A DNA stretch of 64,000 bases, taken from assembly GCF_012489685.1 (NCBI RefSeq), contig NC_080045.1:48009096-48073095 (forward strand). The letters are read 5' to 3'. Both the position numbers and the translations under genes were made by a program. Below are positions 1 through 61,531 of the stretch, piece after piece. The notes under the pieces were generated by a model. It was not told where the DNA came from. It worked only from the letters and a program-made list of their open reading frames with translations, and made no database searches. The stretch comes from Lotus japonicus (Eukaryota > Streptophyta > Magnoliopsida > Fabales > Fabaceae). How positions within the stretch are numbered: position 1 is the first letter of the stretch; each line of letters starts with the position of its first letter.

Positions 1-1443
1 TGTCGTTGATACTTCATTATTCGACATTGAATTTGTTAAGACTCTAGGTTGACTAATTAGAGCCATGAACAAAGAGAATCGAGAACTAATTCGCTTGCAA
101 GTAAAATGTGAGTTAAGTGGAACATAGGTCTAGTTAAGACTATGGACCATGAGAACGATGGTGCCGTTAGAGACAAACGGTTACTTGCACGCGAGGGTGT
201 TGGATTGACTTTATGTCGTCCTGAGAATTAAGGGTTGTACTGTGTGTCCCCTTGGGATTGACCGCGCGTCTCCTCGAGAATTGTGCATCTGCGGATGTTC
301 GAGATTGGCCAAGGTGTTGTGGCGGTTGTGTGAATGGTGAGGATCGTTAGTGTAACCGAATACTTAGGTGATTAACTGTTATATAAAATCCTATTAAAAC
401 AAAGAGATAATATGTGTTGAGAATTGCCTTATATTTATGTTTGGTTTGTAACCTGACCCTTGCTTGTTTGTTTTGTGTTGTTTTGGTGGGGTGGGGGGTA
501 GATGGTTCTGACGAAGACCACAACGTCGATCCACTCCTGGGAACTGACGTTGTATGATGAGGAGAAGGACTGGGCTTGGATGGCCGACACATCCGGAGTC
601 TGACGTGTCTATGTCGGCGATGCAAAGCTTACAGGTTTGGATATGCATGCAAACGTCGTGGAGATGCAACATATGACGGGATGAGTCATCACGATGCCTT
701 ATCCACCTCCACGATACTTTTTCCCGAAGGACGAAGGCTCTCAAGTAGCATCAGTGGAGAGTGATCCTTCAGAAGAAGCAGCGGTTGAGTCCCAGCGAAC
801 GGTAGAGCAGATTATAGTCCCAACGCAGGCCCGAGCTGAGGAACCAAAGCATGATGACAAGGCAGAGTTGAATGGGCGAGTACCTGTAGCACCGGCTTGG
901 TGGGGTGACATGGAAGCTTGCTGTGTATGGGGTCCTTTTGAGGCTCCGCCACTTGAGTCTCTACCGCCAGTCGTGCCATTTTTCAAGAAGCATCGCCAGG
1001 TCAGAGGTTGCTTCGAGAAGGAGCTCATTAAGGTTTCTAGTGAAGACAAGGATATGGATTGAGAGTTTTCTATTTTGGGGACTTGAGAGTTATGCATCGA
1101 ACTTAATTATTTCCTTATTTTGTCGAACTATTTTATAGCTTTGTTATTTCATTTCAGATGTAATGAGTTCACAGTTTTGTACTTGAACAACTTCACACGT
1201 GGGTGTGCTTACTGGTTCTTTTAATTTAAAAGCAAACGTTATTTCAGTTATCCGATGCTTTATATTCAGACATTCGAGTTCAACTTTAAATTGATTGAGT
1301 TTAATTAAGGTCGATGTTTAAGAGTTTTCGTAAAATGGACCTTTGTCATCAATTAAAGATTAATAATTGAATCGACAAAAATTCTTTATGAAACTCATGA
1401 CGTTTGGGTTACTGTGTGACACTCGAGAAATCGGGGCGTTACA
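1..1443 (+). repeat. 5' LTR of gypsy A (3' part only)
   Basis: Position 1 corresponds to about 18555 of the 3' LTR, and the two copies can be followed side by side to the LTR end. The LTR terminates in GGGGCGTTACA at 1443. It contains a conserved block (about 40-205), GTGTGTCC-type repeats (about 230-300), a G-rich acceptor-like tract ending in TAG at 499-501 and an LTR-embedded ORF that starts at 502. The rest, 1063-1443, is AT-rich 3' LTR sequence with no ORF. Confidence 0.92.
502..1062 (+). pseudogene. LTR-embedded ORF, 5' LTR copy of gypsy A (broken)
   Basis: This is the same reading frame as the intact 186-codon ORF at 19082-19642 in the 3' LTR. It starts with ATG directly after GGGGGGTAG. 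Two in-frame TGA codons break it, one just before the RVYVGDA motif (about 601) and one before the proline motif (about 682). The C-terminal half (694-1062) is open. The function is unknown. The family is shared with the LTRs of elements B and C, so it is not a chance ORF. As the paired LTR copy is intact, the stops here are mutations after integration. Confidence 0.75.
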
Positions 1444-5478: not shown

Positions 5479-8400
5479 TGTAAGACCCTAACCTTGCTTA
5501 TGTATTGCTTAAGTGATTTATTGAATAAAAGTGAAATTTCTAGTGAAGTTTGATTTAATTGCTAATCTGTCCTTGACCTTGTGTGAATTTTTGAGAGGTC
5601 TTAAAGACCTAATCTTGAAAACATTCCTTCATGAGAGTTGTAGCTCTCTGAGTTAGCTAAATTCTCTCGTTGGTTTCAGGTCATTCCCACCTCTGTAGCC
5701 CGAGATAGTCATGTTTTAGTGACGGAAGGTCAGGCTGTATTGTTCTAGCAATTTTGCTAGAAGAAAGTCTCTTAATTCCGAATTTATTTCTTTAATATCA
5801 AGGGAAGGAGTTTGCCTTGATTTATTTTATCCTCTTAATCAGTAGTTATGAGAGTAATTAGTTGGACTTGGGCCAAGTTATGAGGGGAGAAGAGAAAAGG
5901 AAAACCTAGCCCATGATGTATGCTAGCCGAATTCCATGAGGAAGGAAGGAAGGGAGACCTTTGGTTGACTTGTAATGCTAGAATCAAGGGGCTGATGGGG
6001 GTTATGTTCCCTTGATTAATAAAAATCAGTTTTCATGGAGAGGATTAAGAGCTAATAATGAGCATTGAAAGTTTTGTCTCCATTTGAATTTGAAGTTTTT
6101 GTGAATGCTTTGAGGGAGGGTGTTGGGCCACGAATTGGAGGGCAAAATGGGAGGTTTGCTGCAGCTTTGAGAGACCTAATAAGGCTAAGTTAGAAACCTA
6201 ACCACATACTCTCATTTCCCCACACAAATTCAGAAGAGAAAAGAAAAGAAAACAAGAGAGATAGAGTGAGAGAGGGTGGCGGCTAGAGAGAAAGAAATAA
6301 GTAGAAGAAGAGGAAAAGCAAGAGAAACCAAGAGAAGATCAAGAGAGAAAGAAGGAGAGCAAGCAAGGACTGTGAGGAGCAGCAAGGAGAGGGCTTCTTC
6401 ATTCATCCTTTTCATCATCTCCCTCATTCCAATCAGCCAAGGTAAGGGTAGAGTCTAGGTTTCTTGATGAAAATTTCATGAAAGCATGATTAAAGGTTTA
6501 ATCTTTATGAAGATGAATGATGCATGAGAATGCATGAGAGGTTTAGGGCTTGATTATCTGCCATATGCTCGTGATGCCTACTGTTTAAGATGATGAGATG
6601 ATGGATGCTATGCCTCTTTAAAAATCACTATTATAGATGTCACTCTTGCTATGATTTTTGCTTAGAGCTGATTCATGATGATTCATATGCCTAAGATTGA
6701 TTAAATTCTTAATGATTATGATGAGATGTTGCTACTGGAATTTAGAGGAGGAATATGTGCTGTATGTTTGCTGGAACATGACCTAGAAATGAATTCTGGG
6801 TCTCAGATGAATTCTGGGTTTCAGAGCCTAATATCACCTAATTCTGGGTCTCAGATTAAAAAGTGATAAACTAGAAAGTTGTAGATTTTCAAAATACCTT
6901 TCCAGGCATGTATAGTATGTCAATTTCGGCTGAGAAATGATTTCTGGAGACCAGTTTTAATGCACACTGTTCCTGCTGCCTAAATGCTAGGGTTCGAGTA
7001 GAAGAGGAACTTGGACAGCAAGGAGCAGACTATCCAAGCTTCATTCCTCCATTCTTTTCAGATCAAGAAATCAAGGTAAGGGCTGATATCTAGGACATGG
7101 GTAGAGTTTAGGGATTTCTATGTGAAAAGCTATGATTTCATGTGTACAAAAATGCGGCTTTGGTGGATTTTTCTTTAGCTTTTTGATGTATTGATTGTTG
7201 CTGATTGCTACTGGAATTTTTACCATATTTGTGAAGCTTGTGTGATTCTATGATCAGTAGGTTAATGTTTGGCAAATGACCCTAGGTCTTGTGTATGGAA
7301 ACCATGAGTTTATGCCAAATTTGCCTAGATTTTCACATGATTTTAACATGTAATTGTGACATGATCAATTCTGGATTTTGGGAGAGTATATGCTTATGGT
7401 TGTTGGATGGACATTGACTTGTGAAGTTGAGATGGAAGAAAGGAAGAGTTTTAGAAAATCTTGGACCCTTTAGGGTTCGGTTAAACCACTTTTGTGGTTG
7501 TAGGCAAGTTTTCTTCCTTCCGATTCATGCACAAGTTTATGTGATGGCTTGATTGATGAAGTTGCCATGAATTAAGTGTTGATGTGCATGAGAATATGAC
7601 TATGTGCTTGATATTGCTTATTTGATGCCTGATTTGAATATTGCCAAAAGGTCGCTCATCCAGCTGTAATTCCTTTTGGTGCTGTGGTTATTATTGTGAT
7701 TATGTTGTATAAGTCTTGTGAAGATGTTAAGACTCTAGGTTGACTAATAGAGCCCTAACAAAGAGAAATGAGAACTTAATCGCTTGCAAGTAAAATGTGA
7801 CGTAATTGGAACATAGGTCTAGTGAGGACTATGGACCATGAGAACGATGATACCGTTAGAGACAAACGGTTACTTGCACGCGAGGGTGTTTTGTGGGTTG
7901 TACGGTGTGTCCTCACGTGATTTGGTTGACTGCGGTCACTTTGTGATTTTGTGGACGGACGGTGTGTCCGGCGGACGGTGTGTCCCCCCACATGAATGAG
8001 GGTTGTACGGTGTGTCCCCTCCGAGAATTGTTCATCTGCGGATGATCGTGATTATGGCCATTGGTGTTGAGGTGGTTGTGTGAATGGTGAGGTCGTTAGC
8101 CTAACTGAACTTATGTGACTGACTTTGATACAACGTAAAGATTATGCTTATTATACCTTGTTATTTATGAGAATACATGAACATGTGAATGTTTCTATGA
8201 GAACATGTGATCTGACCCTGTTATTTGTCTATGTGTTTATTTGGGGGGGGGGGTAGATGGTGACCACCACGATATTGGGGACTATCGTGAGATGGGAGAT
8301 CGTTCTGAGTAGGCCAGCAGAAGACCGGCTCTGGGAGACCGACGGTTCCGGAATCCGGAGAGTCTACGTCGGCGATGCAGAGCTCTTAGGGAGGAACAGA

Positions 8401-9034
8401 TCTGGGACGGTTCTGGAGAGGCAGATGCTTAGGGATGGGACTGTTGTGCTGCCACATCCTCCCGCTAGGTTTCATCAGACTATAGTGGACGATGAGGAAG
8501 AGGATCCTTCGGAGGACACTACAGTGGAGTCACGGTTGGTCGAGGAGGAGAAGGCAGTGGAGTCTTCACCACTAGAGGCCAAGTCGGGAGTCTGTGCGCA
8601 GCGTGTACCTGGGCGTCCAAAGTGCTTTCGAGTGGGACCTCGGAAGAGCGTGATATAGCTGGAGCAGTCTAAGAAGAGAGCGCGTGGAGCGGGAGCTGAC
8701 GTTCCGGAGCGGGATCAGGATTAGAGTGTTCCTTTTTGTGGGGCTGGGAATTCGTGTCGAACTATTATTTATCATTTTTATTTTCGGGTTTTCTTTTGAT
8801 GTACTTTGATGTAGGGCTTCAGCCCAAGGTTTAATTTATGTACTTTGGAGTTATAGTTTCTTTATTTATGAGTATTTCTTATTTATTCCGCAAATTTATT
8901 TCGTAAAGTTTCAAGAGTCGCAATTAATGAACCTTTGTCATTAATTCAAGATTAATAATTGAACGACGAAATTTTTTTACGAAAATGGTGATGTTTGGTT
9001 TACTGTGTGACACTCGAGAAATCGGGGCGTTACA
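5479..9034 (+). repeat. 5' LTR of gypsy B
   Basis: TG at 5479, CA at 9034. In order it holds a purine-rich leader (about 6225-6440), two splice-donor-like sites AAG|GTAAGGG (GT at 6442 and 7076), a conserved block (about 7727-7890), GGACGGTGTGTCC repeats (about 7893-8017), a 10-G tract ending TAG (8247-8256), the LTR ORF (from 8257), and an AT-rich 3' end. A stretch near 6784-6826 differs completely from the 3' LTR (13150-13248). 5479-6224 holds no ORF and is probably U3. Confidence 0.93.
8257..8658 (+). pseudogene. LTR-embedded ORF, 5' LTR copy of gypsy B (late stop)
   Basis: 133 codons starting ATGGTGACC straight after a G-run and TAG. It matches the 155-codon 3' LTR copy at 14677 but ends early because AAG is TAG at 8656-8658; the frame would otherwise run to about 8724. 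It contains RRVYVGDA (residues 34-41), a PHPPAR motif (about 66-71) and an acidic tract with EEDPSED. It shares residue spacing with the ORF in the LTR of element A. The function is unknown. I see no signal peptide or membrane segment. Confidence 0.75.
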
Positions 9035-9037
9035 TTG

Positions 9038-9049
9038 TGGTATCAGAGC
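9038..9049 (+). promoter_or_regulatory. Primer binding site of gypsy B
   Basis: TGGTATCAGAGC lies 3 nt after the LTR end, identical in site and spacing to element A. It is complementary to initiator tRNA-Met. Confidence 0.93.
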
Positions 9050-9271
9050 TCCGGTTGAGAAACCAGAGCACTAAGGGTTTTAGGCTTACGAGTTTCCGAA
9101 CTCGTTGTGTTTTTTTTTTGTTTTTGATAAAGATGTTTTCAAAGCTTCGCGGTGAGATTGGGTAGACTTGTTTGCTAAGATGTTTGCTTGATTGTGAGAA
9201 TGTCTCTGATTAGTATCATTGCCGTGATACCTGAGATTAAGTGTTTGACTCTTTGTCAAGATATTTTGAGG

Positions 9272-9435
9272 AAGTTGATCTTGGATGAGGGTCATAAGAG
9301 TAGATTGAGTATTCATCCGGGAGTGACAAAGATGTATCAGACTTAAAACTTCATTTCTGGTGGACTGGGATGAAGAAACGAGTAGTCGAGTATGTATCAA
9401 CGTGTTTGACGTGTCAAGAGGTGAAGGTAGAAGCT
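9272..9435 (+). pseudogene. Integrase zinc-binding remnant in gypsy B
   Basis: A short pol relic reading DEGHKSRLSIHPGV, then TCLTCQ-like codons, after one frameshift near 9341. It aligns with 4935-5100 of element A (H..H..C..C zinc domain of integrase). Nothing upstream or downstream continues it, so the internal region of B derives from a deleted autonomous element. Confidence 0.75.
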
Positions 9436-10894
9436 AAGGATGAATCTTAGTGGAATGACATATGAATTCCAGAGATGAGATGTCAAGGGTACATGATTTT
9501 TGAGGTTGAAGTATTAGAAATTGAATCGATTGGATATGATCTCAATTTATGTGGCTACGGGATGATAGGGACTCATTGACCTTTCCAGTGATTTTTTTCT
9601 AAATTTCCATCTTCGGCATATTAAGCCTAATCGACTTAATATTGAAGGGGGGTGATATTCAGAATTATAGCTGGTGATGGACCATGATAGAAAGGTTGAT
9701 AGGAATTGATATATGTTGGTCAAATCTGAGAGATGAGTTTTGTTAGGTATTTAATCCCATTGTGAAGAAGTCGTAGTGCTAAGAAATGAATATTCATCTA
9801 AAAATTGTTGAAGAGTTAGAGGACGTTATTGGTGCGAACTCAGTGAAGGTTTAGATTTTAAGTCCATAAATTCTTGTCCTAATTGTGTAGGACTTAAAGT
9901 TTGTTAGAATTGGATTGAGAGATTAAGAAGTTGATTGGTGTCATAGTGATCAAGCTAGAGAAAGAAAGTTTTAGCATAAGTTGAATACATGAGAGTGTTG
10001 ATATGGATTTCAGAGAAATGTGCTAGGATTACTAAGTGAGATTGACTAAGCTGGATTAAAACCTTAGGGGTTAAGATTGTCCTTGAGAGTTGGGAGACAG
10101 GTATGAATAAGAGATTTAATGGTTTTAGTTGTGACGATAGCAGTTGAACCTTTGAAGATTAAAATCTAGGGAGCGAAAGTTGGGCTAAGTCCCTAGAGGC
10201 ACAATATATGGTTTGATCTTGAAGGGAATGAATTATGAGTTATGCAGAGATTTCAGACTCAAAATAGGCTATAATTTGACTTGTGGATAAGTGAAAGATT
10301 GATTTAAGGTCTGAATGAGGATAGTTCTGAAACAAGAGATGACGTATGGATTGTTAGGTATTGAGATGATGATTAGCTTATAAACGGTTGATCAATTGGA
10401 CTTGGATTTGGCGCCTAGTGCCCTAGTACGAGCGTGATATCTAGGTCTATCTGAAGATGATTGTTAGATATCTAAGGGTTGTTGTTGCCTTGTATGTCAC
10501 CCTTGAGGTGAACTTGCATGACGTCTCCCAGGTTTTGGGATGCGTGCTGACACTACTTGTAAGATCGAAGAAAAGTGAGGGATTGAAAGGATGTTTTAAT
10601 TAAGGGTTGTCGCTTACCCAAGGATTGAGATTGGAAGGGACGCTCCAAGTGGAACACGCCTGACCACATCGAGACTTTGTGTCTATTTTGGTAAAATAAA
10701 TAATAATTGGTATTATCTCATTTTGTGAATGGTTTGTGATTTATGTGTGTGATATGATTTGGTGTGCTGAATGCTCATCATTGAGTCATAGAGGCGGGGA
10801 AGAACACTGACTGAGTCAATGTCTTCCTTACGTTTTTGTGGTGTTTTGTGTGACTGTGTTACACTCTCGATTTTGTTTTTCCTTACTTAGCAAA
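9436..10894 (+). other. Non-coding internal region of gypsy B
   Basis: No ORF of note and no recognisable pol motif in any frame. A segment near 9590-9700 (AT-rich, 'ttccatctt...ttgatattg' type) recurs in diverged form at about 11555-11660, so part of the region is an internal duplication. Otherwise I see nothing in it. Confidence 0.6.
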
Positions 10895-11288
10895 GATGGT
10901 GGATGGAACCATCGGCTAAGAAAGGATGGCGGATGGAGCCAGTGAACAGAGTGCGTCGATCAAGATGGTGGATGGAACCATCAAGGTCGATGAGATGGCG
11001 GATGGAGCCAGTGCACGGAGTGCGTCGATTGAGATGGTGGATGGAACCATCAAGGTCGATGAGATGGTGGATGGAACCATCGGTGAAGCAGGAATGGTGG
11101 ATGGAACCATTGGTCAGACCGAGATGGTGGATGGAACCATCAGGAAAGACGGGATTGGTGGATGGAACCAATGATCGTATATGGTGGATGGAACCATAGA
11201 TCGAACAAACCAGATGGTGGATGGAACCGTCGAATGGACTAGGTGGTGGATGGAACTACTGAACGAGTGAATTGGTGGATGGAACCTT
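10895..11288 (+). repeat. GGTGGATGGAACC minisatellite in gypsy B
   Basis: About 13 copies of a GGTGGATGGAACCAT-type core (variant GGCGGATGGAGCC) with irregular spacing of roughly 25-40 bp. Two copies of a longer compound unit are visible at 10925-11060. Repeat-driven ORFs on both strands are by-products. Its role is unknown. Confidence 0.9.
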
Positions 11289-11852
11289 TGAGCTCGGTGT
11301 CCGAAAAGTTTGTTTTCCCGTGTCTGAGCTGTTGATGTTGCATCTGGATCACCAGGACGGGACGCCGACCAGCGTGCACCGGCATGAGCATAACACCTGT
11401 TTGACTTAAACTTCTGTTGTTTTGTGTGACTGCAGTGAGTCAGTCTGGGTCATGTTCTAACGGAAGAGTTCCGTGAGGTTCTACGACGAGTGTCTAGGTT
11501 ATAGACAGTGAAATGAGAGTGACTCGAGCATCCTTACCAATTATTTTTTTCTAGTTGCCATCTTTTAGATATTGAGCTTGATCAACTTGATATTGGAAAA
11601 TGGTGATAGGAATGATAGTTGGTGTTGGACTGTGACAGGAACGTTAAAGAGAGAGTTTCCCTTTGTGGGAATGATGTGGAACTAGACCATTAGAGATGTC
11701 TCGTGAAGACCAGAAAGATGAGACTAAAGGCAATAACCTATGCGTCGAGACGACTGGGAAATTGGTAGGGAATATCAGAGTGCGCAATGGAAGCGTGGTA
11801 TGTCTTCCTATAGTAGTTTCGAGGACGAAACCATTTTTAAGGAGGGTGGTAT
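11289..11852 (+). other. Non-coding 3' internal region and polypurine tract of gypsy B
   Basis: No ORF. It ends with TTCGAGGACGAAACC and a purine tract AAGGAGGGTGGTA (about 11839-11851) immediately before the 3' LTR. That is the usual place and form of the plus-strand primer in this clade. Confidence 0.7.
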
Positions 11853-14800
11853 TGTAAGACCCTAACCTTGCTTATGTATTGCTTAAGTGATTTATTGAAT
11901 AAAAGTGAAATTTCTAGTGAAGTTTGATTTAATTGCTAATCTGTCCGTGACCTTGTGTGAATTTTTGAGAGGTCTTAAAGACCTAATCTTGAAAATCTTC
12001 CTTCATGAGAGTTGTAGCTCTCTGAGCTAGCTAAATTCTCTCGTTGGTTTCAGGTCATTCCGACCTCTGTATCCCGAGATAGTCATGTTTTAGTGATGGA
12101 AGGTCAGGCTGTATTGTACTAGCAATTTTGCTAGAAGAAAGTCTCTTAATTCCGAATTTATTACTTTAATATCAAGGGAAGGAGTTTGCCTTGATTTATT
12201 TTATCCTCTTAATCAGTAGTTAGGAGAGTAATTAGTTGGACTTGGGCCAAGTTATGAGGGGAGAAGAGAAAAGGAAAACCTAGCCCATGATGTATGCTAG
12301 CCGAATTCCATGAGGAAGGAAGGAAGGGAGACCTTTGGTTGACTTGTAATGCTAGAATCAAGGGGCTGATGGGGGTTATGTTCCCTTGAATAATAAAAAT
12401 CAGTTTTCATGGAGAGGATTAAGAGCTAATAATGAGCATTGAAAGTTTTGTCTCCATTTGAATTTGAAGTTTTTGTGAATGCTTTGAGGGAGGGTGTTGG
12501 GCCACGAATTGGAGGGCAAAATGGGAGGTTTGCTGCAGCTTTGAGAGACCTAATAAGGCTAAGTTAGAAACCTAACCACATACTCTCATTTTCCCACACA
12601 AATTCAGAAGAGAAAAGAAAAAAAAAACAAGAGAGATAGAGTGAGAGAGGGTGGCGGCTAGAGAGAAAGAAATAAGAAGAAGAAGAGGAAAAGCAAGAGA
12701 AACCAAGAGAAGATCAAGAGAGAAAGAAGGAGAGCAAGCAAGGACTGTGAGGAGCAGCAAGGAGAGGGCTTCTTCATTCATCCTTTTCATCATCTCACTC
12801 ATTCCAATCAGCCAAGGTAAGGGTAGAGTCTAGGTTTCTTGATGAAAATTTCATGAAAGCATGATTAAAGGTTGAATCTTTATGAAGATGAATGATGCAT
12901 GAGAATGCATGAGAGGTTTAGGGCTTGATTATCTGCCATATGCTCGTGATGCCTACTGTTTAAGATGATGAGATGATGGATGCTATGCCTCTTTGCAAAT
13001 CACTATTATAGATGTCACTCTTGCTATGATTTTTGCTTAGAGCTGATTCATGATGATTCATATGCCTAAGATTGATTAAATTCTTAATGATTATGATGAG
13101 ATGTTGTTACTGGAATTTAGAGGAGGAATATGTGCTGTATGTTTGCTGGAACAAGGCCTAGAAACCTTGGACTCAAATGGTTAGAAATTAATTTGAAGGT
13201 AAAAGTATCACTGCCAGTTTTCTGTACTGGACAGCGAAGTTCAGAGCCTAATATCACCTAATTCTGGGACTCAGATGAAAAAGTGATAAACTAGAAGGTT
13301 GTATATTTTCAAAATAGCTTTCCAGGCATGTATAGTATGTCAATTTCGGCTGAGAAATGAATTCTGGAGACCAGTTTTAATGCACACTGTTCCTGCTGCC
13401 TAAATGCTAGGGTTCGAGTAGAAGAGGAACTTGGACAGCAAGGAGCAGATTATCCAAGCTTCATTCTTCCATTCTTTTCAGATCAAGAAATCAAGGTAAG
13501 GGCTGATATCTAGGACATGGGTAGAGTTTAGGGATTTCTATGTGAAAAGCTATGATTTCATGTGTACAAAAATGCGGTTTTGGTGGATTTTTCTTTAGCT
13601 TTTTGATGTATTGATTGTTGCTGATTGCTACTGGAATTTTTACCATATTTGTGAAGCTTGTGTGATTCCATGATCAGTAGGTTAATGTTTGGCAAATGAC
13701 CCTAGGTCTTGTGTATGGAAACCATGAGTTTATGCCAAATTTGCCTAGATTTTCACATGATTTTAACATGTAATTGTGACATGATCAATTCTGGATTTTT
13801 GGAGAGTATATGCTTATGGTTGTTGGCTGGACATTGACTTGTGAAGTTGAGATGGAAGGAAGGAAGAGTTTTAGAAAATCTTGGACCCTTTAGGGTTCGG
13901 CTAAGCCACTTTTGTGGTTGTTGGCAAGTTTTCTTCCTTCCGATTCATGCACAAGTTTATGTGATGGCTTGATTGATGAAGTTGCCATGACTTAAGTGTT
14001 GATGTGCATGAGAATATGACTATGTTCTTGATATTGCTTATTTGTTGCCTGATTTGAATATTGCCAAAAGGTCGCTCATCCAGCTGTAATTCCTTTTGGT
14101 GCTGTGGTTATTATTGTGATTATGTTGTATAAGTCTTGTGAAGATGTTTAGACTCTAGGTTGACTAATAGAGCCTTAACAAAGAGAAATGAGAACTTAAT
14201 CGCTTGCAAGTAAAATGTGATGTAATTGGAACATAGGTCTAGTGAGGACTATGGACCATGAGAACGATGGTACCGTAAGAGACAAACGGTTACTTGCACG
14301 CGAGGGTGTTTTGTGGGTTGTACGGTGTGTCCCCACGTGATTTGGTTGACTGCGGTCACCTTGTAATTCTGTGGACGGACGGTGTGTCCGGCGGACGGTG
14401 TGGCCCCCCCATGAATGAGGGTTGTACGGTGTGTCCCCTCCGAGAATTGTTCATCTGCGGATGATCGTGATTATGGTCATTGGTGTTGAGGTGGTTGTGT
14501 GAATGGTGAGGTCGTTAGCCTAACTGAACTTAGGTGACTGACTTTGATACAACGTAAAGATTATGCTTATTATACCTTGTTATTTATGAGAATACATGAA
14601 CATGTGAATGTTTCTATGAGAACATGTGATCTGACCTTGTTATTTGTCTACGTGTTTATTTGGGGGGGGGGGGTAGATGGTGACCACCACGATATTGGGG
14701 ACTATCGTGAGATGGGAGATCGTTCTGAGTAGGCCAGCGGAAGACCGGCTCTGGGAGACCGACGGTTCCGGAGTCCGGAGAGTCTACGTCGGCGATGCGG

Positions 14801-15454
14801 AGCTCTTAGGGAGGAACAGATCTGGGACGGTTGTGGAGAGGCAGATCCTTAGGGATGGGACTGTTGTATTGCCACATCCTCCCGCTAGGTTTCATCAGAC
14901 TACAGTGGACGAGGAGGAAGAGGATCCTTCGGAGGACACTAAAGTGGAGTCACGGTTGGTCGAGGAGGAGGAGGCAGTGGAGTCTTCACCACCAGAGGCC
15001 AAGTCGGGAGTCTGTGCGCAGCGTGTACCTGGGCGTCCAAAGTGCTTTAGAGTGGGACCTCGGAAGAGCGTGATAAAGCTGGAGCAGTCTAAGAAGAGAG
15101 CGCGTGGAGCGGGAGCTGACGTTCCGAAGCGGGATCAGGATTAGAGTGTTCCTTTTTGTGGGGCTGGGAATTCGTGTCGAACTATTATTTATCATTTTTA
15201 CTTTCGGGTTTTCTTTTGATGTACTTTGATGTAGGGCTTAAACCCAAGGTTTAATTTATGTACTTTGGAGTTACAGTTTCTTTATTTATGAGTATTTCTT
15301 ATTTATTCCGCAAATTTATTTCGTAAAGTTTCAAGAGTCGCAATTAATGAACCTTTGTCATTAATTCAAGATTAATAATTGAACGACGAAAATTCTTTAC
15401 GAAAATGGTGATGTTTGGTTTACTGTGTGACACTCAAGAAATCGGGGCGTTACA
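11853..15454 (+). repeat. 3' LTR of gypsy B
   Basis: TG at 11853, CA at 15454, followed by TSD TACAA. Same architecture as the 5' LTR: purine-rich leader (12590-12815), donor-like GTAAGGG at 12817 and 13496, conserved block (about 14147-14310), GTGTGTCC repeats (14313-14440), G-run plus TAG, and ORF at 14677. It carries about 100 bp (13150-13248) that the 5' LTR lacks or has replaced. Confidence 0.93.
14677..15144 (+). CDS. LTR-embedded ORF of gypsy B, intact
   Basis: 155 codons, the best-preserved copy in the B family. Residues 1-71 align without gaps to the ORF in the LTR of element A, with 34 identities by my hand count. The matches include W13, W26, D29, RRVYVGDA (34-41), G45, VVE (52-54) and P..PP.R (66-71). 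An acidic segment with EEDPSED follows, then a basic C-terminus. No signal peptide, membrane helix or known catalytic motif is visible. The start is chosen because ATG lies immediately after a G-run and TAG, which looks like a splice acceptor. I do not recognise the family. It is not gag, pol or a chromodomain. It could be a small regulatory protein encoded by the LTR. Confidence 0.65.
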   Translation: MVTTTILGTIVRWEIVLSRPAEDRLWETDGSGVRRVYVGDAELLGRNRSGTVVERQILRDGTVVLPHPPARFHQTTVDEEEEDPSEDTKVESRLVEEEEAVESSPPEAKSGVCAQRVPGRPKCFRVGPRKSVIKLEQSKKRARGAGADVPKRDQD

Positions 15455-15459
15455 TACAA

Positions 15460-15488
15460 CAACAGTTTCCATGCGAGCATAGGGATGG
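15460..15488 (+). pseudogene. pol: Gypsy A integrase sliver between two insertions
   Basis: 29 bp reading NSFHASIGM in the frame interrupted by element B, ending in GATGG, the TSD of the next insertion. It shows that the two insertions entered the same integrase gene independently, 30 bp apart. Confidence 0.85.
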
Positions 15489-16653
15489 TGTAAGACCAAG
15501 ATTTGGTCATGTAGTACAACTCTATGTTTTGATGATTACATGTTAACTATTGTGTATGAACAATTGTGGTACTCTAACATTGTTTTCTGAGTGTTTAAAT
15601 GACAGGCTCTGACTCTGGTCAAAACTCACACATATCAGAAGCATTAAGCCCAAAGAGTAGCCAACGCAATGCTTTCGCACACACTATGTTTTGATTGAAC
15701 AGTAGTATATGCTTTAGAAGTTCTGAAGATGACAAGCTCCGATGCGGATTCAGATCACTTAAAGTTCTGAAGACCAGAAGTTCTGAAGGTCCAGAAGCTG
15801 AGAAGTGAAGATTCTGAAGTCCAAGAGTAAGCTGGCTCTGAAGACCAAGTACTTCCAACTCTGAGGTCAAGAAGCAGAAGTTACGAAGGTCAGAGGATCC
15901 AAGCTTCCCTCTGACTCTGATCAACAAGCTTCACAAGTTCCAAAATGAAGAGTCACGTGATCAGAAGTCAATTAGGATAAGGGTCACGTCGCTATCCAAG
16001 TACGAAAGCAATTGTACCATTCTGACGACCTTACCTAAGACGTTCAGCCATAGCAGAATCTGGAAGTTACAGATTTGCCCTCCAACGGTAGCATTCCATG
16101 CAACGGATACAACCCTAATCCTTGGAGTATAAATAGAGGCTGAAGATGGAAGATGCCGCTAAGAAACTTTGTGCAAGCTTAAGCAACCATTCAATATTCT
16201 CTTAGCAATCTTTCTTCAATCGTTTTTATTGTGTTTACCTTAGCTTTCTGAGAAGCACTCATTGTAAACCCAAACCTTCAAACAGTTAGTTTGTTTTTCC
16301 TTAAGGGACCAAGGTTGGTCAGATCCTTGAGAAGACTCAAAGAGTGAATCTTAGTGCTTACTAGTTCATTCTATTGTTAGTCACTGAGCAGGTTGCTAGT
16401 GCAGCTGTAACAAACATTGAATATTGGATTGCCTTCATTCTAAGAAGGAAGAAATGACCTTAACGCGTGGACTGGATTAGCTTGAGGGATTTATCAAGTG
16501 AACCAGGATAAAATACTTGTGTGCTCTTCTTCATCTCTTATCTTTGCACCTTGTGTTATTTGTTAGAGAGATTTGTCCAAATCTCAAGAGGGAAAAGTTT
16601 TTATTTGAAAACGCTATTCAAACCCTCCCTTTTTATCGTTTTTCATACCTTCA
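15489..16653 (+). repeat. Solo sirevirus (Ty1/copia) LTR
   Basis: 1165 bp starting TGTAAGACCAAG and ending TTTTTCATACCTTCA, flanked by GATGG at 15484-15488 and 16654-16658. It matches the sirevirus LTRs from 21022 onwards along its length but is more diverged. TATAAATAG lies at 16128-16136. The middle holds degenerate TTCTGAAG/GATCCAGAAG repeats (about 15715-15900), as in the other sirevirus LTRs. It formed by LTR-LTR recombination of a full element inserted in A. Confidence 0.95.
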
Positions 16654-16658
16654 GATGG

Positions 16659-17261
16659 CACCTTACGAAGCTCGGTATGGTCGGAGGTGTCGTACGCCTT
16701 TGTGTTGGCATCAAGACGGGGAGAACTTGGTTATTGGACTTGAGTTGGTTCAGCAGACCACAGAAGAAGTGAAGCGAATCCAGGAAAAGATGAGGATCTC
16801 GCAGAGTCATCAGAAGAGTTATGCTGACAACATGAGGAAGGAGCTGGAATTTCAAGCTGCAGATCATGTCTTCTTGCGGGTTACCCCGATGACAGGTGTC
16901 GGAAGGGCGATCAAGTCGAAGAAGCTTACTCCAAAGTTCATTGCACCTTACCAGATTACGGAACGTGTTGGGCCAGTGGCATATAGGATTGCGTTGCCGC
17001 CATTCCTATCTAATATTCTTGATGTACCTCACGTATCGCAGCTTCGGAAGTACCTGGCCGATAACTCTCATGTTAGTGAACCTGATGATATTCAGCTAAA
17101 GGATAATCTGACGATGGTGATGTCACCCATCAAGATCGTCGACAAGAGTACCAAACGCTTATGAAACAAGGAGGTATCCTTGGTGAAAGTGATTTGGAAT
17201 CAAGCGACGGGTGACGCTATCTGGGAGCTTGAGGATGAGATGCGGGAGTCACATCCCTAAT
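16659..17261 (+). pseudogene. pol: Gypsy A pol, last part: integrase C-terminus and chromodomain-like end
   Basis: It resumes after the solo LTR with APYEARYGRRCRTPLCW (the GPY/F-side integrase motif), continues through PYQITERVGPVAYRI and the HVSQLRKY segment, and reaches a chromodomain-like end (IVDKSTKRL, stop at 17161, then VIWNQATGDAIWELEDEM). The stop TGA at 17161-17163 replaces an expected Arg codon. The reading ends in MRESHP and a stop at about 17259. The last pol residues and the polypurine tract seen in relatives are missing. This region identifies A as a chromovirus. Confidence 0.85.
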
Positions 17262-17965: not shown

Positions 17966-19081
17966 GTAAGGGCTGGTTTAGGAAAAGTGTAGAGGCTTAG
18001 GGTTTTGCCATGAAAATCCTTGAGAAAAGTTATGTTCTTGCATGTTTTGCATGAGATTTGTGGAAGTGTTTGTTGCTGTACCTTTTTGCCATGAAAGCCA
18101 TGATTCTTAATCCTTATTTTATGTACCTTGCATGGCCCTATATTCTTATGTTTTGATTCCATGATTATATGCTAAATTTGACTTGATCTTCACATGTTTT
18201 AACATGAAGGTTGATGAATGTTTAGATCTGAATTTCTGGGTGAATATGTTTGATGTTGTTGGCTGGACATAGGCTTGTGATGATGAAAGAAAAGAAAGAA
18301 CAAAAAATATAAACCCTAGAGCTCTTTTTGGGTTCGGTCGAACCCTATTTCAGGGGGTTCGGTGCGTTTTTTTATTTCGGTTCATGCACAAGTTCGTCTG
18401 ATGTCTTGCTTGATGGAATTTCCATGAATTATGTGTTGAAATGAATGTGAATGTGATTATGAGTATATTTGTAACATGTATATTGCCTGACTGAGATATT
18501 GCTACAAGGGTCGCTCATCCAGCTGTAATTCCCACTGGTGTTGTGTATGTTTCATATCGTTGATACTTCATTATTCGACGTTGAATTTGTTAAGACTTTA
18601 GGTTGACTAATTAGAGCCATGAACAAAGAGAATCGAGAACTAAATCGCTTGCAAGTAAAATGTTAATTAAGTGGAACATAGGTCTAGTTAAGACTATGGA
18701 CCATGAGAACGATGGTGCCATTAGAGACAAACGGTTACTTGCATGCGAGGGTGTTGGATTGACTTTATGTCGTCCTGAGAATTAAGGGTTGTACTGTGTG
18801 TCCCCTTGGGATTGACTGCGCGTCTCCCCGAGAACTGAGGGTTGTACTGAGTGTCCCCTCGAGAATTGTGCATCTGCGGATGTTCGAGATTGGCCAAGGT
18901 GTTGTGGTGGTTGTGGGAATGGTGAGGATCGTTAGTCTAACCGAATACTTAGGTGACTAACTGTTATATAAAATCCTATTAAAACAAAGATAATATGTGT
19001 TGAAAATTGCCATATATTTATGTTTGCTTTGTAACCTGACCCTTGCTTGTTTGTTTTGTGTTGTTTTGGGGGGGGGGGTAG
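17966..19081 (+). other. Putative LTR intron of gypsy A
   Basis: The donor-like TCAAG|GTAAGGG at 17966 follows a purine-rich leader. The acceptor-like G-run plus TAG ends at 19081, directly before the LTR ORF ATG. The predicted length is 1116 nt. Similar donor/acceptor pairs occur in B (7076-8256, 1181 nt, or from 6442) and in C1 on the minus strand (35216 to about 33595). The pairing is inference. No transcript evidence is available. Confidence 0.45.
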
Positions 19082-19642
19082 ATGGTTCTGACGAAGACGA
19101 CAACGTCCATCCACTCCTGGGAACTGACGTTGTATGATGAGGAGAAGGACCGGGCTTGGATGGCCGACACATCCGGAGTCCGACGTGTCTATGTCGGCGA
19201 TGCAAAGCTTACAGGTTTGGATATGCATGGAAACGTCGTGGAGATGCAATGTATGACGGGAGGAGTCATCACGATGCCTTATCCACCTCCACGATACTTT
19301 TTCCCGAAGGACAAAGGCTCTCAAGTAGCATCAGTGGAGAGTGATCCTTTAGAAGAAGCAGCGGTTGAGTCCCAGCGACAGGTAGAGCAGATTATAGTCC
19401 CAACGCAGGCCCGAGCTGAGGATCCAAAGTATGATGACAAGGCAGAGTTGAATAGGCGAGTACCTGTAGCACCGGCTTGGTGGGGTGACATGGAAGCTTG
19501 CTGTGTATGGGGTCCTTTTGAGGCTCCGCCACTTGAGTCTCTACCGCCATTCGTGCCACTTTTCAAGAAGCGTCACCAGGTCAGAGGTTGCTTCGAGAAG
19601 GAGCTCATTGAGGTTTCCAGTGAAGACAAGGATATGGATTGA
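19082..19642 (+). CDS. LTR-embedded ORF of gypsy A, intact
   Basis: 186 codons starting immediately after a G-run and TAG. Motifs: W13, W26, D29, RRVYVGDA (34-41), D47..G50, VVEMQ (52-56) and MPYPPPR (65-71). Then come an acidic/glutamine-rich stretch, a WWGDMEACCVWGPFEAPP segment (about 136-153) and an acidic C-terminus ending SSEDKDMD. The N-terminal 71 residues align gap-free with the B ORF. The C-terminal part is specific to family A. No signal peptide, membrane helix or catalytic motif is recognisable, so the function is unknown. The 5' LTR copy (502-1062) has two stops, so this copy is the one still open. Confidence 0.65.
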   Translation: MVLTKTTTSIHSWELTLYDEEKDRAWMADTSGVRRVYVGDAKLTGLDMHGNVVEMQCMTGGVITMPYPPPRYFFPKDKGSQVASVESDPLEEAAVESQRQVEQIIVPTQARAEDPKYDDKAELNRRVPVAPAWWGDMEACCVWGPFEAPPLESLPPFVPLFKKRHQVRGCFEKELIEVSSEDKDMD

Positions 19643-20023
19643 GAGTTTTCTATTTTGGGGACTTGAGAGTTATGCATCGAACTTAATTATTTTGTTATTT
19701 TGTCGAACTATTTTATAGCTTTGTTATTTCATTTCAGATGTAATGAGTTCACAGTTTTGTACTTGAACAACTTCACACGTGGGTGTGCTTAGTTGTTCTT
19801 TTTATTTAAAAGCAAATGTTATTTCAGTTATCCGATGCTTTATATTCAGACGTTCGAGTTCAACTTTAAATTGATTGAGTTTAATTAAGGTCGATGTTTA
19901 AGAGTTTTCGTAAAATGGACCTTTGTCATTAATTAAAGATTAATAGTTGAATCGACGAAAATTCTTTATGAAACTCATGACGTTTGGGTTACTGTGTGAC
20001 ACTCGAGAAATCAGGGCATTACA

Positions 20024-32585: not shown

Positions 32586-33111
32586 AGCTATGTTAAGTCT
32601 GCAAAAGTAATTGCTGAAGCTGTTTCTTGTAACACCCCGATTTCGGTGGCGTCACTTTAGTAACCAAAAGAAATACTTAAGCGGAAAAAAAACGTGAATT
32701 ATTTTTTTTCGACAATATAACTAAAGACAGAAAGCAATAAACTCCCCAACAAAAGATAAAAGAAACTACTATACAACTATATATACATGCCTCGCTAAAT
32801 ACAACCACGTCACGAGTAACCTCCAGTGACGGGTGACAGAAAGAGAGTAACGCCCGAAGGCAATATGTACAGTCCAAGGTAAAAATACTGTGTCCGCAAC
32901 ACTAAACCTCAAAATCTGAGAACAAGTTGGCCCAGCGGCCTAAGAAAAGACCCCCTAAATCCAACCAGCTCTCTGTGATCTCCATAGGAAACCACACAAA
33001 AAGCTACCGGTAGGAAACTACCCTGTCCCCAAAACTGAAGCATGACGGTCAGAGCATCGACACTACTCCTACACTAATCCCTACCCGAGGAGCCCACACT
33101 AGCACTCGATC

Positions 33112-33651
33112 CTACATGCTAGCGCGGTCGTCATCCGAATCTGCATCCAGGACGACTAAGTCGACATACTCAACACTGTCCTCTCTGTCCACCCTAATGC
33201 GCTCCTGCACTGGCCTCTCGGGCTCGGGGCCCGGAACGAGATCCGCGACGACAGCAGCAGCAGTAGACGGACTAGACTCCGTCGAAGCCCCACCTACTGG
33301 CACCTCCTCAGAGGGGTCCTCATCATCCGAAGGGGATGGTGGCGGTGGAGGTCCTCCCAAGCCGGGTCCACAGTGTACACCTGGAGGCAGGTTGAAGCTC
33401 ACTATGTGCCTCCTCATCACCCCCTCCGTCAAGCGTCCGAATCGGTCGACACGGTCCTCCATGACCCGACCGGTGTAGGTCGCACGGTGGCCCTCGGGAT
33501 CGACCACCCATGCACCTGGGTCGTCTTGATCAAGCATCTCATACCTGGTCCCCCCCGAGGGGCTGACCATGGTAAACCAATCCCCCATACTCATCTGACA
33601 AATGGCGTAGTCCGCCCAAACACACACAGCAGACGCGAGGGTCAACTCCAA
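33112..33651 (-). CDS. LTR-embedded ORF of gypsy C
   Basis: 179 codons from the first Met (33651). The likely functional start is the Met at 33594 or just after, because CAG precedes it as an acceptor-like site. Aligned to the A and B ORFs, W, D(+3), G(+6), R(+8), Y(+11) and G(+13) keep the same spacing, as do D(+21), G(+24), E(+28) and a following P-P pair. The A/B RVYVGDA motif is RATYTGR here. An acidic DDEDPSEE tract matches EEDPSED of B. The C-terminus is acidic and ends DADSDDDRASM. It is thus a diverged member of the same LTR protein family. The function is unknown. No disabling mutation is seen. Confidence 0.62.
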   Translation of the reverse strand: MELTLASAVCVWADYAICQMSMGDWFTMVSPSGGTRYEMLDQDDPGAWVVDPEGHRATYTGRVMEDRVDRFGRLTEGVMRRHIVSFNLPPGVHCGPGLGGPPPPPSPSDDEDPSEEVPVGGASTESSPSTAAAVVADLVPGPEPERPVQERIRVDREDSVEYVDLVVLDADSDDDRASM

Positions 33652-34289
33652 AGAATTATATAATTAATAAAACCAGATATAATTATAGGATAATAAATAC
33701 TTGCCTCTCAGGCTTATAAGTTTTGGGATAGCTTCCTAGGGTTGCATGTATCACAATGAATATAAAGAACCATAATAACAAGTAGCATGCCTCAAAAATA
33801 GGATAAACAGTTACCAATCACACTCAGCAACTAAGTCAGCATGTATGTTGCATGAAATGCAATGCTGGGTAACAAAATGCATTCCGGAAGAAGGATGGAC
33901 ACCATCGAGTCAGCCCTAACACCGGCCAAAGTGGGACCATTCCGCTCGGGCGTCTCTTACACCACACAAAAGTAGTCAGATCAGCAGTGAACCCGTAGGT
34001 CTGCCATTCCGTCTGCTACTGAGGACCACCGTAGTGTCCTAAATATGGAAATCCGGGTCTTATGACCATTTTGGAATCCACCGAGGTTCAGTATCACGCC
34101 GTGTATTAACCTCAAAATGAGTGCATGAATGCAAGTGATTAGCCAAACAACGTCTCCGACCTCACCCGACACGTCGCCACGTGTTCTAGATAACTTAAAG
34201 TCTCTAAAAGAATACCCTAAGGTAAATGTCGATTCTGCGACAAAATACAATTAATCATAAACAAAAGAGTGCAACCACTCACGACAACT

Positions 34290-34556
34290 CTTCAAGTCAT
34301 CAATGCTCTCACGAAGTCTCACGCTTCTGTGGAGTCTCACACATTCACAAAGTCTCACGCTTCAGTGAAGTTTTATGCTTTCACAAGGTCTCACGCCTCA
34401 GTGAATTTACACACTTGCACGAAGTCTCACGCTTCAATGAAGTTTCATGCTGTTCACGAGGTCTCACGCCTCAGTGAAGATCCATGCTTTCCACAAGGTC
34501 TCACGCCTCAGTGGAGTATCACGCATTCACAAGGTCTCACACCTCCGTGAAGCTTC
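34290..34556 (-). repeat. TCTCACGC-type minisatellite in LTR C1
   Basis: About eight degenerate copies of a core AAGTCTCACGCTTCAGTGAAG spaced 25-45 bp apart, alternating with CATGCTTTCACAAGG-like segments. The equivalent place in C2 holds an unrelated 80-bp repeat. Confidence 0.85.
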
Positions 34557-35373
34557 TCGGCTCATCCCTTGGATGGCTAAACAAACTGCTCCCAGAGCGA
34601 TTGAGTATCAACATACCCAGAACTCGCAATCTTCTCAACACTTGGATCCGACGACACTTCTCGTTTTCCAAAACTAAACTTCAATCCAAAGCTTGCATCC
34701 GAGATTGTTATCTTTATTTAAAGGTTTAGAGGTTGTTTAATATCTTATGAATTTTCTTTGTAAAAATAGCTCCTTTTTAGTCTTATCGTATTCCCTATGA
34801 GTTTCAAAGTTCCCATAATCCCAAGTAATTCCCTGAGAAGGTCTCGATCCATTGGAGCATGACAAGGTCCGAACTCCGTTCGTCCTTTTAAAACTCTCTC
34901 AAAATCTCATAAAAATTTGGCATGACCTGCCCGTAAACCTCACTCCTCAGAATCTCAGGTACAAGTGGAATAGCATAAATAAAACAGCTCAGTCAAAAGC
35001 ATAAACAACATATTCCAACACATCCTAAGTTAACCATGTAGCACATAGCATGTGAATCATTTAGCACACAATATCATGGCATCAATTACTCAACAAGGTC
35101 GGCCGAAGCCTCAGAGAACAATTCAGACATTTAGCAATTAAGTGCATAACACATAAATCAAGTCGAACTTGTCGACACCTAAAGCATTATCTAGTAATTC
35201 AGAGAGTAGCCCTCACCGGTGGGTCTTCCAGCTTCTTCCTCAAAATGTTCTTCAAGCTCTTCTCCTTGATCTCTGGGAATCTCCTCAAACGAACCTTAAG
35301 CAAAAATCACAGAAATCAACACCAAGAGTCAGAAACTCAGCAATCAAAGAGTCCTAGGGTTACACGGTACACT

Positions 35374-35437
35374 ACTACCTCCGTGGTACGACAATCTAAC
35401 GCGTTACTACCTCCGTGGTACGACAATCTAACGCGTT
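35374..35437. repeat. 32-bp perfect tandem duplication in LTR C1
   Basis: ACTACCTCCGTGGTACGAC units at 35374-35405 and 35406-35437. C2 has a single related copy near 63060-63095. Confidence 0.88.
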
Positions 35438-36660
35438 AAGACAAGTTTTCGAAAAATCGGATTCTCCCCCCCCCCCCTTGATATAGCTCTCGGCCACTTC
35501 CTTTAATTGGGAGGGTCGATTTTTCTTCGATCAAACTTGGTTCCTAGGTTAACATAAGCCGTAACTAAGACGGTTCTAGGCTCGGAAAAATTTTCGGATC
35601 GAAAACTGATATAGGGGTAGTTTGGTCATTATTTTTAGCTCAAAATTTCAAAATTGGATTTTTGAAAAACAAATTGGATGGGGACGTCCACAACGACGTT
35701 TATGACGACAAATCCTACTAGCACTAAGCCAAGTCGATAGATTAGAGCGTAAAGGTTGCGACTTTGCCGAAAAATGGGTATTTAAGGTAGAAATTGATCC
35801 CGGCGGCATTTCGTCGACATTCGACAAAATCTAATCCGCAGAACACGCTCAGGAGCATGCAGGGAAGAAGTTTAGACACTGAAATCAGCGTATTTGAACA
35901 GTTTTTCAAAAACCTCAAAATTTTGAACTCAGAAAGTCGTAGGAGAAGTGGACAGAAACGACGATTCGAAGGAGAGTATAGTTTACCTACCTCGAGGTCT
36001 TCGATTAGTGACGATCGGTGAAGCAAACGGGCAAGAAACGACGAAGATCCGGATCTCTCTCTCTCTCTAGGTGCTCGCGGGTTTGGGGAGGGGAAATGGG
36101 TATTTTTTTTGCAAAAAATCTAATTTTCAAGCTATTTATAGGTTTTGGAAAAAGCGGAAAAAAGATTTTTTTGCGATTCCGATTTTTCCTGCGCGTTCCT
36201 CTGCGCATTCTAAGATAGGTTCTGGCGACAGAATTCCAGAACTCAAAACAGGATTCTTGGAATTAAACCAAAAGATCCAAAATCGACATAAGTCGGTGTA
36301 AGTCGGATTATCCAGAAAAACTACTTTTTGCAGTGATCGTCGGATGAGAAAACTTCATTCTGAAGAAAGATTAGGAATGATGAGAGAAATAGGAGATCGC
36401 GGGTGGAATCTTCTTTTGCAGCTCCGAATAGAAAAAGTCTTCATCGTCTGTCGATCTTAGGTTTTCTCGAACTATCAGGGATTCCGTTTCGGCAAACTTC
36501 CGAGAATTGGAATTTGACGTTCGTACTTTCCAGGATTTCGCATCGAAATGATTGTTTAAGGACGGAAAAGAGAAGTTCTAACATTTCTCTGAGGATTTTT
36601 GGAATTAGTTTCCATCGTGTCTTAAAGCGTAAATTAACTATTCACTAATACCTTTGACCT

Positions 36661-37063
36661 AGGATTCATACTTTTGGATCAAAGACAATGCCTTTGATTC
36701 TTTGACTTTCTTGTTTCCTTCATGAGACATCTTCAGAGATTCGAAAATGCCTTTCGCAAACTCACGATCTGTAATCTTCTGGTACTCTTCATAGGAAATA
36801 GCACTTAGAAGAATTGCTCTTGCTTTGTGATGTTGTGAGTACAGCTTCTTTTGATCTGCAGTCATCTCTGACCTTGGGATCTTCTTGCCATCTGCATCAA
36901 CTGGACGCTCGTAGCCATCCACAATAATATCCCAGAGATCTGCATCGAAACCCAGAAAGAAACTTTCCAGTCTATCTTTCCAATATTCGAACCTTTGACC
37001 GTTGAACATAGGAGGCTTTGCATTGTAACCATCTCTTTGAGTTTCACTGGTGGTGGCAGCCAT
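36661..37063 (-). pseudogene. gag: Truncated sirevirus gag (left copy of S4)
   Basis: The first 134 gag codons on the minus strand, from ATG at 37063 to the break at 36661, in the capsid domain. It matches S4 gag (49430-49832) with a single difference noticed. Beyond the break the sequence is gypsy LTR, so the rest of this copy was lost. Confidence 0.9.
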
Positions 37064-37135
37064 TGTTTTTCACACCGGCCCGGATCACTGAACACTGTTA
37101 GGTGTGGTAATCAGAACTTGCGCTCTGATACCAAT

Positions 37136-39804: not shown

Positions 39805-39876
39805 ATTGGTATCAGAGCGCAAGTTCTGATTACCACACCTAACAATGTTCAGTGATCCGGGCCGGTGTGAAAAACA

Positions 39877-42461: not shown

Positions 42462-42533
42462 ATTGGTATCAGAGCGCAAGTTATGATTACCACACCTAAC
42501 AGTGTTCAGTGATCCGGGCCGGTGTGAAAAACA

Positions 42534-49832: not shown

Positions 49833-49904
49833 TGTTTTTCACACCGGCCCGGATCACTGAACACTGTTAGGTGTGGTAATCAGAACTTGCGCTCTGATAC
49901 CAAT

Positions 49905-61321: not shown

Positions 61322-61531
61322 CTAAGACTCTATTCCTACACTAATCCCATCTCGAGTAAGTCGCTCGGTGACCAGCGGGGTCGACCACCCATGAACCGTA
61401 GTCCTCCTGATCAAGCTTCTCCAACCTAGTTTCCCCCGAAGGGTGAACCATCGTGAACCGGTCCGCCATGGACATCTGACAAAGGCGTAGTCCGCCCAAA
61501 CACACACAGAAGACGCGAGGGTCAACTCCAA
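61322..61531 (-). pseudogene. LTR-embedded ORF remnant in C2
   Basis: The upstream segment (MELTLASSVCVWADYA) matches C1. A frameshift then a deletion removes the W..D..G core and the acidic tail. The sequence jumps from the WST region to the LTR 3' end. Confidence 0.6.

Follow-up and report, generated by a model that had tools for sequence, protein, structure and literature searches.

Evidence for purifying selection on a protein encoded within the long terminal repeats of Lotus japonicus retrotransposons

The long terminal repeats (LTRs) of several retrotransposon families of Lotus japonicus contain an open reading frame (ORF) whose substitution pattern supports the view that the protein it encodes is under purifying selection. 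The ORF was recognised in a stretch of 64,000 nucleotides (contig NC_080045.1, positions 48,009,096 to 48,073,095 of the forward strand; hereafter the window), which is part of the chromosome-size contig C5 of the 553.7-Mb genome that was searched, and which contains nested LTR retrotransposons, among them the families designated here A, B and C. Sequence comparison establishes the position of the ORF in the LTR, its homology across families, the selection on its frame and the conserved context of its start codon. The LTRs of several Ty3/gypsy families carry a selected accessory gene, the product of which is tentatively regarded as a predicted nuclear adaptor acting in trans on its own LTR and sustaining transcription or escape from silencing, a reading whose probability is put somewhat short of even.

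Reading frames in the LTRs and selection on the encoded protein

The following ORFs were delimited in the window:

19082..19642, + strand: LTR ORF of family A, 186 amino acids, intact
502..1062, + strand: ORF in the other A LTR copy, homologous over 186 codons, with two TGA (codons 34 and 61)
14677..15144, + strand: LTR ORF of family B, 155 amino acids, in the 3' LTR
8257..8721, + strand: ORF of family B in the 5' LTR, open to 8658 (133 amino acids), then TAG; homology continues to codon 155
33112..33594, - strand: LTR ORF of family C, 160 amino acids from the first ATG (33594); open upstream to a TTG at 33651 (179 amino acids)
61353..61490, - strand: remnant of a second C-type ORF, about 46 first residues, the rest lost to an internal deletion; part of a further C-type LTR

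The initial annotation, made from the letters of the window, had placed related ORFs in the LTRs of A, B and C at five of these sites, and homologous frames were found at all five; that at 502 keeps its homology over the whole length but is broken by the two TGA codons. A recount agreed with the 34 identities in 71 ungapped residues given for A and B, and the residues W, D, G, R, Y, G, D, G and E are seen at the same spacing in C. Between A/B and C, whose surrounding LTR DNA the initial annotation had described as far more diverged, the blastn alignment is confined to about 58 bp at the LTR end. The three diverged families were likewise borne out, their number being too low, as many more subfamilies exist in the genome. 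Of the two outcomes named as fatal to the proposal, a dN/dS near 1 and the lack of a homologous ORF in other Tekay-like elements, neither was seen: the ratio is below 1, as described below, and many further related copies were found in the same genome.

The genome-wide collection was built from about 150 scored candidates per query, out of 1070 (B), 7658 (C), 1147 (A) and 7373 (the gene model P0004) first-look candidates, and all copy numbers are lower bounds; the 7658 and 7373 loose candidates of the C-type queries point to a high-copy element with long LTRs. The fetched loci yielded 68 distinct ORFs of at least 125 amino acids, shorter ones and those starting at an internal methionine being left out, and 33 of them with mutual identity below 85% form the nonredundant set. 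Together with eight database proteins, some of which are near a member, they make the set of 41 proteins used below; the proteins used are 133-222 amino acids long. Among the A-query matches, full-length open frames reach down to 43% identity.

The place of the ORF within the repeat is regular. In the window copies its end lies 377 and 310 bp (B, 5' and 3' LTR), 382 bp (A, 3' LTR) and 484 bp (C) before the LTR end, and the distance is 310-492 bp at the 15 loci with a recognised end motif (14 of the 33 nonredundant members and L067b), many fetched stretches being too short to include the LTR end. Same-strand ORF pairs 4-12 kb apart, expected because one element has two LTRs, number 27 in 150 C-type matches (chance 0.17), with a spacing mostly of 8.6-8.8 kb, and 15 in 150 A-type matches (chance 0.18). 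A complete C element (C3:16053083-16066049) has an ORF in each of its LTRs of about 4.15 kb, which are 99.83% identical over 4152 aligned bases.

The A/B and C ORFs are very probably homologous. BLASTP of A against C gave an E-value of 5e-4, and a hidden Markov model (HMM) of 30 A/B members matched four C-type proteins, namely P0005 (E 0.0058), the window C protein (0.022), a second C-type protein (0.076) and P0004 (0.16), each of which beat all of the 10,000 shuffled decoys (best shuffle E 0.42). With the same HMM, P0003 ranks among the shuffles, and P0007-P0010 are not among the best 30 matches listed. The profile-profile comparison of A/B and C gave a probability of 72% (P 3.3e-5) over columns 14-96. 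The likeness in sequence is thus above chance and not strong, and the judgement on homology is made because these scores are joined by the common place in the LTR, an EDPSE tract, a C-terminal motif and a start codon directly preceded by YAG.

Selection on an LTR-encoded protein, which the initial annotation had suspected, is supported by the ratio of nonsynonymous to synonymous substitution (dN/dS). In 22 disjoint pairs of 73-88% nucleotide identity, which share tree branches and come from a sampling that favoured intact ORFs, the ratio was 0.16-0.60, that is, below 1 in all 22, with a pooled value of 0.346 (0.299-0.402, bootstrap over pairs). The sense frames of the same DNA offset by one and two bases gave 0.97 and 1.13, and because the ratio is below 1 in the true frame and about 1 in the shifted sense frames, the pattern is one of purifying selection on a protein. 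The antisense frames gave 1.00, 0.43 and 1.15, the value 0.43 being an expected mirror, since the third codon positions of that frame coincide with those of the sense frame. The median dN/dS falls with age, from 0.63 at dS 0.02-0.1 through 0.46 and 0.38 to 0.31 at dS 0.6-1.0, as would follow if each new copy, once inserted, drifts neutrally and the lineage as a whole remains under constraint; the 0.43 of the bin dS 1-2 is unreliable owing to saturation.

Stop codons point the same way. They were counted in 116 of the 150 A-query rows (the other 34 all have less than 125 aligned residues), 90 of which have at least 150 aligned residues. Among these 90, the 36 matches at 43-55% identity contain a mean of 0.89 stop, and 15 contain none, whereas simulations in which the A ORF drifted at random until 50% identity remained gave 5.1 stops and left only 0.5% of the runs stop-free.

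Protein architecture and the start-codon context

The features of the family A copy, to which the following refers, are:

19082..19297, + strand: predicted beta core, residues 1-72
19604..19639, + strand: C-terminal SUMO-interaction-like motif LIEVSSED..., residues 175-186
19036..19081, + strand: 3'-splice-site-like stretch, with CTGAC at 19036-19040, a T-rich part, a G-run and TAG abutting the ATG
18965..18972, + strand: candidate TATA box TATATAAA, 117 bp upstream of the ATG

The structure prediction of the N-terminal region, proposed in the initial annotation, gave a beta core of about 70 residues. Two AlphaFold2 models of different members agree on it, that of A with strands at residues 12-17, 35-46 and 52-65 and a short bridge at 27-28, and that of the C-type protein P0005 with strands at 16-20, 29-32, 37-49 and 55-68; the ten-residue means of the predicted local distance difference test (pLDDT) over residues 11-70 are 69-90 and 67-86, respectively. 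The statement that no named family fits holds in that none was found in Pfam, nor by sequence in the PDB. After the core, a motif of the [DE]-DP-x-E type is present in 34 of the 41 proteins, and a run of at least three K/R past residue 100 in 28, including 27 of the 30 in the A/B group. The proteins are mostly acidic (median net charge -13, range -23 to +1).

A SUMO-interaction motif (SIM) has a core of hydrophobic residues followed by acidic or serine residues. SIM-like C-termini, such as LIEVSSED in A, VIYISSDDED in the member L083 and VDLVVLDADSDD in C, occur in both the A/B and the C lineages and were counted in 24 of the 41 proteins by a loose pattern, which was set post hoc on these very sequences (4.6 in shuffled tails); P0009 and P0010 have EMITVDSDSDSD and yet fail the pattern. 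A second short C-terminal motif, GWL, was noticed in six subfamilies, as CGWL in four (L083, L085, L094 and L095), FGWL in L082 and NGWL in L097, and is followed by xxS in five.

The start codon stands in a regular context. YAG abuts the first ATG in 62 of the 68 ORFs (TAG in 50, CAG in 5 and, in 7 C-type ORFs, CAG directly followed by ATGAGTATG) and in 31 of the 33 nonredundant members; a branch-point-like YTRAY lies 27-53 nt upstream in 29, mostly at 38-53 nt (18.0 of 31 with dinucleotide shuffling), and the positions -48 to -4 contain 39% T and 37% G. Since both TAG and CAG occur, it is the AG that is conserved and not a stop codon, which fits a 3' splice site, the splicing remaining putative. 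In the gene model P0004 the residues before the ATG are not in frame just upstream, therefore its annotators placed a junction there. The B LTRs contain a donor-like AAGGTAAGG at -1183 and about -1.8 kb.

Most A/B members, the window copies just before 19079, 14674 and 8254 included, have a G-run of about 5 to 17 nucleotides directly before the TAG and ATG. It is absent in the C-type, and a poly-G run was therefore rejected as an essential element.

Boxes like TATATAAA occur at -112 to -127 in 9 of the 33 members. The TATA-like boxes fit either a U3 position of the ORF or a position in the transcribed leader, depending on the copy. A C-type LTR (L069:606-859) contains, about 0.7 kb upstream of the ORF, a 254-bp array of seven 36-bp units with GTGAGACTTCAC-like half-palindromes. 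By analogy, the LTR-encoded protein may have this array as its cis-target; a general tandem-repeat target in these LTRs was rejected, because the A and B stretches scanned showed no such array.

Carrier elements in the window and in the genome

The LTRs delimited in the window are as follows:

1..1443, + strand: 5' LTR of A, cut by the window edge
18557..20023, + strand: 3' LTR of A, the portion matching the 5' copy (96.5% over 1439 bases); its true start is further upstream
5479..9034, + strand: 5' LTR of B, TGTAAGACCC...GCGTTACA, with the target-site duplication TACAA at 5474-5478
11853..15454, + strand: 3' LTR of B, sharing 97.5% of 3551 aligned bases with the 5' LTR, with TACAA at 15455-15459
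32628..36666, - strand: C-type LTR, about the first 150 bp absent, with no primer-binding site (PBS) after it

Element A starts before position 1 and ends at 20023. Its gag-pol, located by tblastn at 1834-5479 and 16625-17257, is interrupted twice, by element B at 5479-15454 and, at about 15479-16653, by another insertion, which matches repeats elsewhere in the window. Element B is delimited by the 5-bp target duplication TACAA, its LTRs start with TGTAAGACCC and end with GCGTTACA, and the PBS TGGTATCAGAGC, presumably of the tRNA type, follows the 5' LTR. The LTRs of B, of 3.6 kb, flank an interior of only 2.8 kb (9036-11852), and the LTR gene is retained. In this interior no gag-pol match was found except a short remnant of the integrase zinc domain, therefore B is a non-autonomous copy. 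The C-type LTR at 32628..36666 is a solo or a 3' LTR, since no PBS follows it, and the copy is 98.7% identical to the LTR of the complete C element.

The latter is bounded by the target-site duplication TTGAC, has the PBS TGGTATCAGAGC and contains between its LTRs a stop-free gag-pol frame of 1474 codons, in which Pfam searches in three pieces found gag, zinc knuckle, protease, reverse transcriptase, RNase H, integrase and SH3_Tf2-1, in the Ty3/gypsy order. The C-terminus after SH3_Tf2-1 resembles by eye a type II chromodomain; no Pfam chromodomain matched the C gag-pol at E <= 0.01. The carrier elements are likely Ty3/gypsy chromoviruses of the Tekay lineage. Many C-type copies are near-identical and hence young.

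Among the matches listed in the database searches, no relative is known to be outside Lotus; a wider distribution is possible, because LTR ORFs may be masked before annotation. A captured host gene was considered as the source of the ORF and rejected, since none of the listed matches is a relative known to lie outside Lotus, with the matches outside LTR copies not inspected one by one; a gag-pol fragment was ruled out by the lack of a domain match.

Two further observations concern the surrounding repeats. Ten B-type ORF matches, six with the same score, lie on both strands within about 192 kb (G000:C2:30502102-30694125), perhaps through local amplification. In the window, the segments 36661-42468 and 49430-55233 form a 5.8-kb repeat of 99.8% identity with copia-type gag pieces, which we take to be SIRE-like; it represents either a recent duplication or a paired insertion, unrelated to the LTR ORFs.

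Possible function and relation to known systems

In the tentatively favoured reading, the messenger RNA would be spliced, with the 3' splice site at the start codon; the beta core of about 70 residues would be the target-binding part, the basic run would serve as a nuclear signal, the C-terminal motif would bind SUMO, and the acidic tail would be disordered. The nuclear product would then act on the own LTR of the element through a SUMO-dependent partner, the LTR thereby staying transcribed or unsilenced, and the ORF copies in solo LTRs could also supply the protein. The motifs are compatible with a nuclear regulator, and a role in chromatin or transcription is ranked above RNA binding because the protein is acidic; both an LTR-bound regulator and an RNA-binding protein had been named, as speculation, in the initial annotation.

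Several points weigh against this reading. The G-run before the YAG of most A/B types is unusual for a 3' splice site, the upstream exon of P0004 was not located within about 1.2 kb, and the regularity of the start context comes in part from shared descent. In the A and C groups alike, the side of the ORF on which a TATA-like box stands, upstream or downstream, varies between members, and no array comparable to that of the C-type LTR was found in the scanned stretches of the A and B LTRs. As to the protein, the models are confident in the core only, the tails being mostly below pLDDT 50, and the beta core has no significant match in the Pfam, PDB or Foldseek libraries. The C-type members, except P0008, are without the basic run; 17 of the 41 proteins fail the SIM pattern, B-type members among them, and the set in which this pattern was counted includes near relatives, such as P0002, which is 93% identical to the window C protein. 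No single motif is universal. As to the selection on the frame, a simple reading is complicated by the flanks of the ORF, which are conserved too: in 17 pairs at 85-93% the identity is 0.911 for the ORF, 0.884 for the upstream 150 bp and 0.847 for the downstream 150 bp, and in 34 pairs at 55-85%, cross-group pairs included, 0.766, 0.771 and 0.718, respectively. Selection probably acts on noncoding signals ahead of the ORF, too.

A more far-reaching version, in which the LTR would constitute a complete gene, one repeat uniting the promoter, an intron whose end coincides exactly with the initiator codon, the frame for a nuclear anti-silencing protein that binds SUMO, and the terminator, and with solo LTRs as a source in trans, is considered doubtful. 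An RNA-handling factor, which would bind the genomic RNA of the element and export it unspliced, in the manner of CERV in Cer1 and Rem in mouse mammary tumour virus (MMTV), is also unlikely: it has these precedents, but the Lotus protein is net acidic over the 41 sequences, the basic run is missing from most C-type members, and neither a significant fold match nor an Rfam element was found.

Lower still stands a leader cistron, that is, an ORF in R-U5 whose translation sets the gag output, the product itself being secondary. The TATATAAA-like boxes of the nine members would place the transcription start just upstream of the ORF, and the upstream 150 bp are nearly as conserved as the ORF, as this explanation would have it; but the amino-acid selection, the frames open down to 43% identity and the common C-terminal motifs require a functional product, and in two C-type LTRs a TATA-like box is downstream of the ORF. 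An equally low probability is given to a non-regulatory role in the particle, in the choice of integration site or in cell-to-cell movement. Sunflower Tekay elements with and without a 5' extra ORF are described as differing in their insertion distribution (PMC11728184), which would speak for such a role, but none of the 41 proteins reaches a 19-residue mean hydropathy of 1.6, so that no membrane segment was recognised, and no significant match of the LTR protein to capsid or integrase families was found. That there is no protein at all, the open frames being a side effect of conservation in the LTR DNA, or of copies that are near-identical and young, has the conserved flanks of related copies and the youth of many C-type copies in its favour; it is very improbable in view of a dN/dS below 1 in 22 of 22 pairs, against about 1 in the shifted sense frames, and of stops far rarer than under neutral drift.

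The favoured reading, the nuclear adaptor acting on its own LTR, may be compared with several known systems. The superantigen of MMTV is membrane-anchored, unlike the Lotus protein, which has no membrane segment. Its gene sag is nevertheless the nearest parallel, both being accessory proteins coded within an unusually long LTR: in MMTV the LTR-encoded accessory gene has a splice acceptor just upstream (PMC3026287), and the Lotus ORF, which is wholly inside the LTR, has a splice-acceptor-like sequence abutting the start codon, with putative splicing. The host kingdom and the element family are different.

Among plant elements, the Tekay extra ORFs (5'aORF, or eORF-5'F) are reported from the grass elements RIRE3, RIRE8, Retrosat-2 and FRetro3 and from sunflower Tekay group 2, where they lie 5' of gag, are conserved within the family and are predicted to be nuclear and largely disordered; the sunflower protein has 402 amino acids (PMC11728184). 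The Lotus ORF copy in the 5' LTR is also an extra frame 5' of gag-pol, with a second copy 3' of pol, and there may be a kinship in kind. The Lotus proteins of 133-222 amino acids fall below the 250 codons from which a plant survey counted extra ORFs (PMC6317226), and their location in the LTR gives copies at both ends and in solo LTRs; this comparison follows the published description of the 5'aORFs, and no published 5'aORF protein was among the matches listed in database searches with the LTR proteins. In a 2020 review (PMC7264820), plant extra ORFs are defined by their place in the internal region, and the Lotus ORF, being inside the LTR, falls outside that definition.

CERV of the Caenorhabditis elegans LTR retrotransposon Cer1 is a small nuclear accessory protein whose mRNA is spliced, with a conserved acceptor preceding the ATG (PMC10309623). 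In contrast to the Lotus ORF, its five-exon mRNA is mostly in the polyprotein reading frame, and the description does not present it as LTR-located. The Arabidopsis VANC proteins, for which binding and loss of silent marks have been demonstrated, act on the noncoding DNA of their own VANDAL and target arrays of the kind seen in the C LTR (PMC10398659); by analogy, the role proposed for the Lotus protein would likewise be an action on the noncoding DNA of its own element, whereas VANDALs are DNA transposons, so that VANC genes lie outside any LTR. A coding region enters the LTR also in the centromeric CRM elements of group A, whose gag-pol polyprotein frame runs at its end into the 3' LTR (PMC3059260); the Lotus ORF differs as a separate gene within the LTR near its 3' end.

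Accessory genes of retroelements are thus known, while for a plant LTR as their site no report was listed in searches of openly licensed papers for plant-LTR ORFs or Tekay extra ORFs. Plant LTRs are treated as regulatory DNA, and the 250-codon cut-off of the survey exceeds every Lotus member (PMC6317226). A selected LTR gene means that these elements code for more than has been recognised, that solo LTRs may be more than inert remnants, and that the evolution of the element and of its LTR is coupled through a protein. The family also offers a testable example of the means by which long-LTR elements of high copy number could go on multiplying although the host silences them. If the more far-reaching version is true, each element would have two copies of the gene, "dead" solo LTRs would help live elements, and the protein would be the first case in plants of a trans-regulator encoded by an LTR, with the sag arrangement of MMTV as its counterpart.
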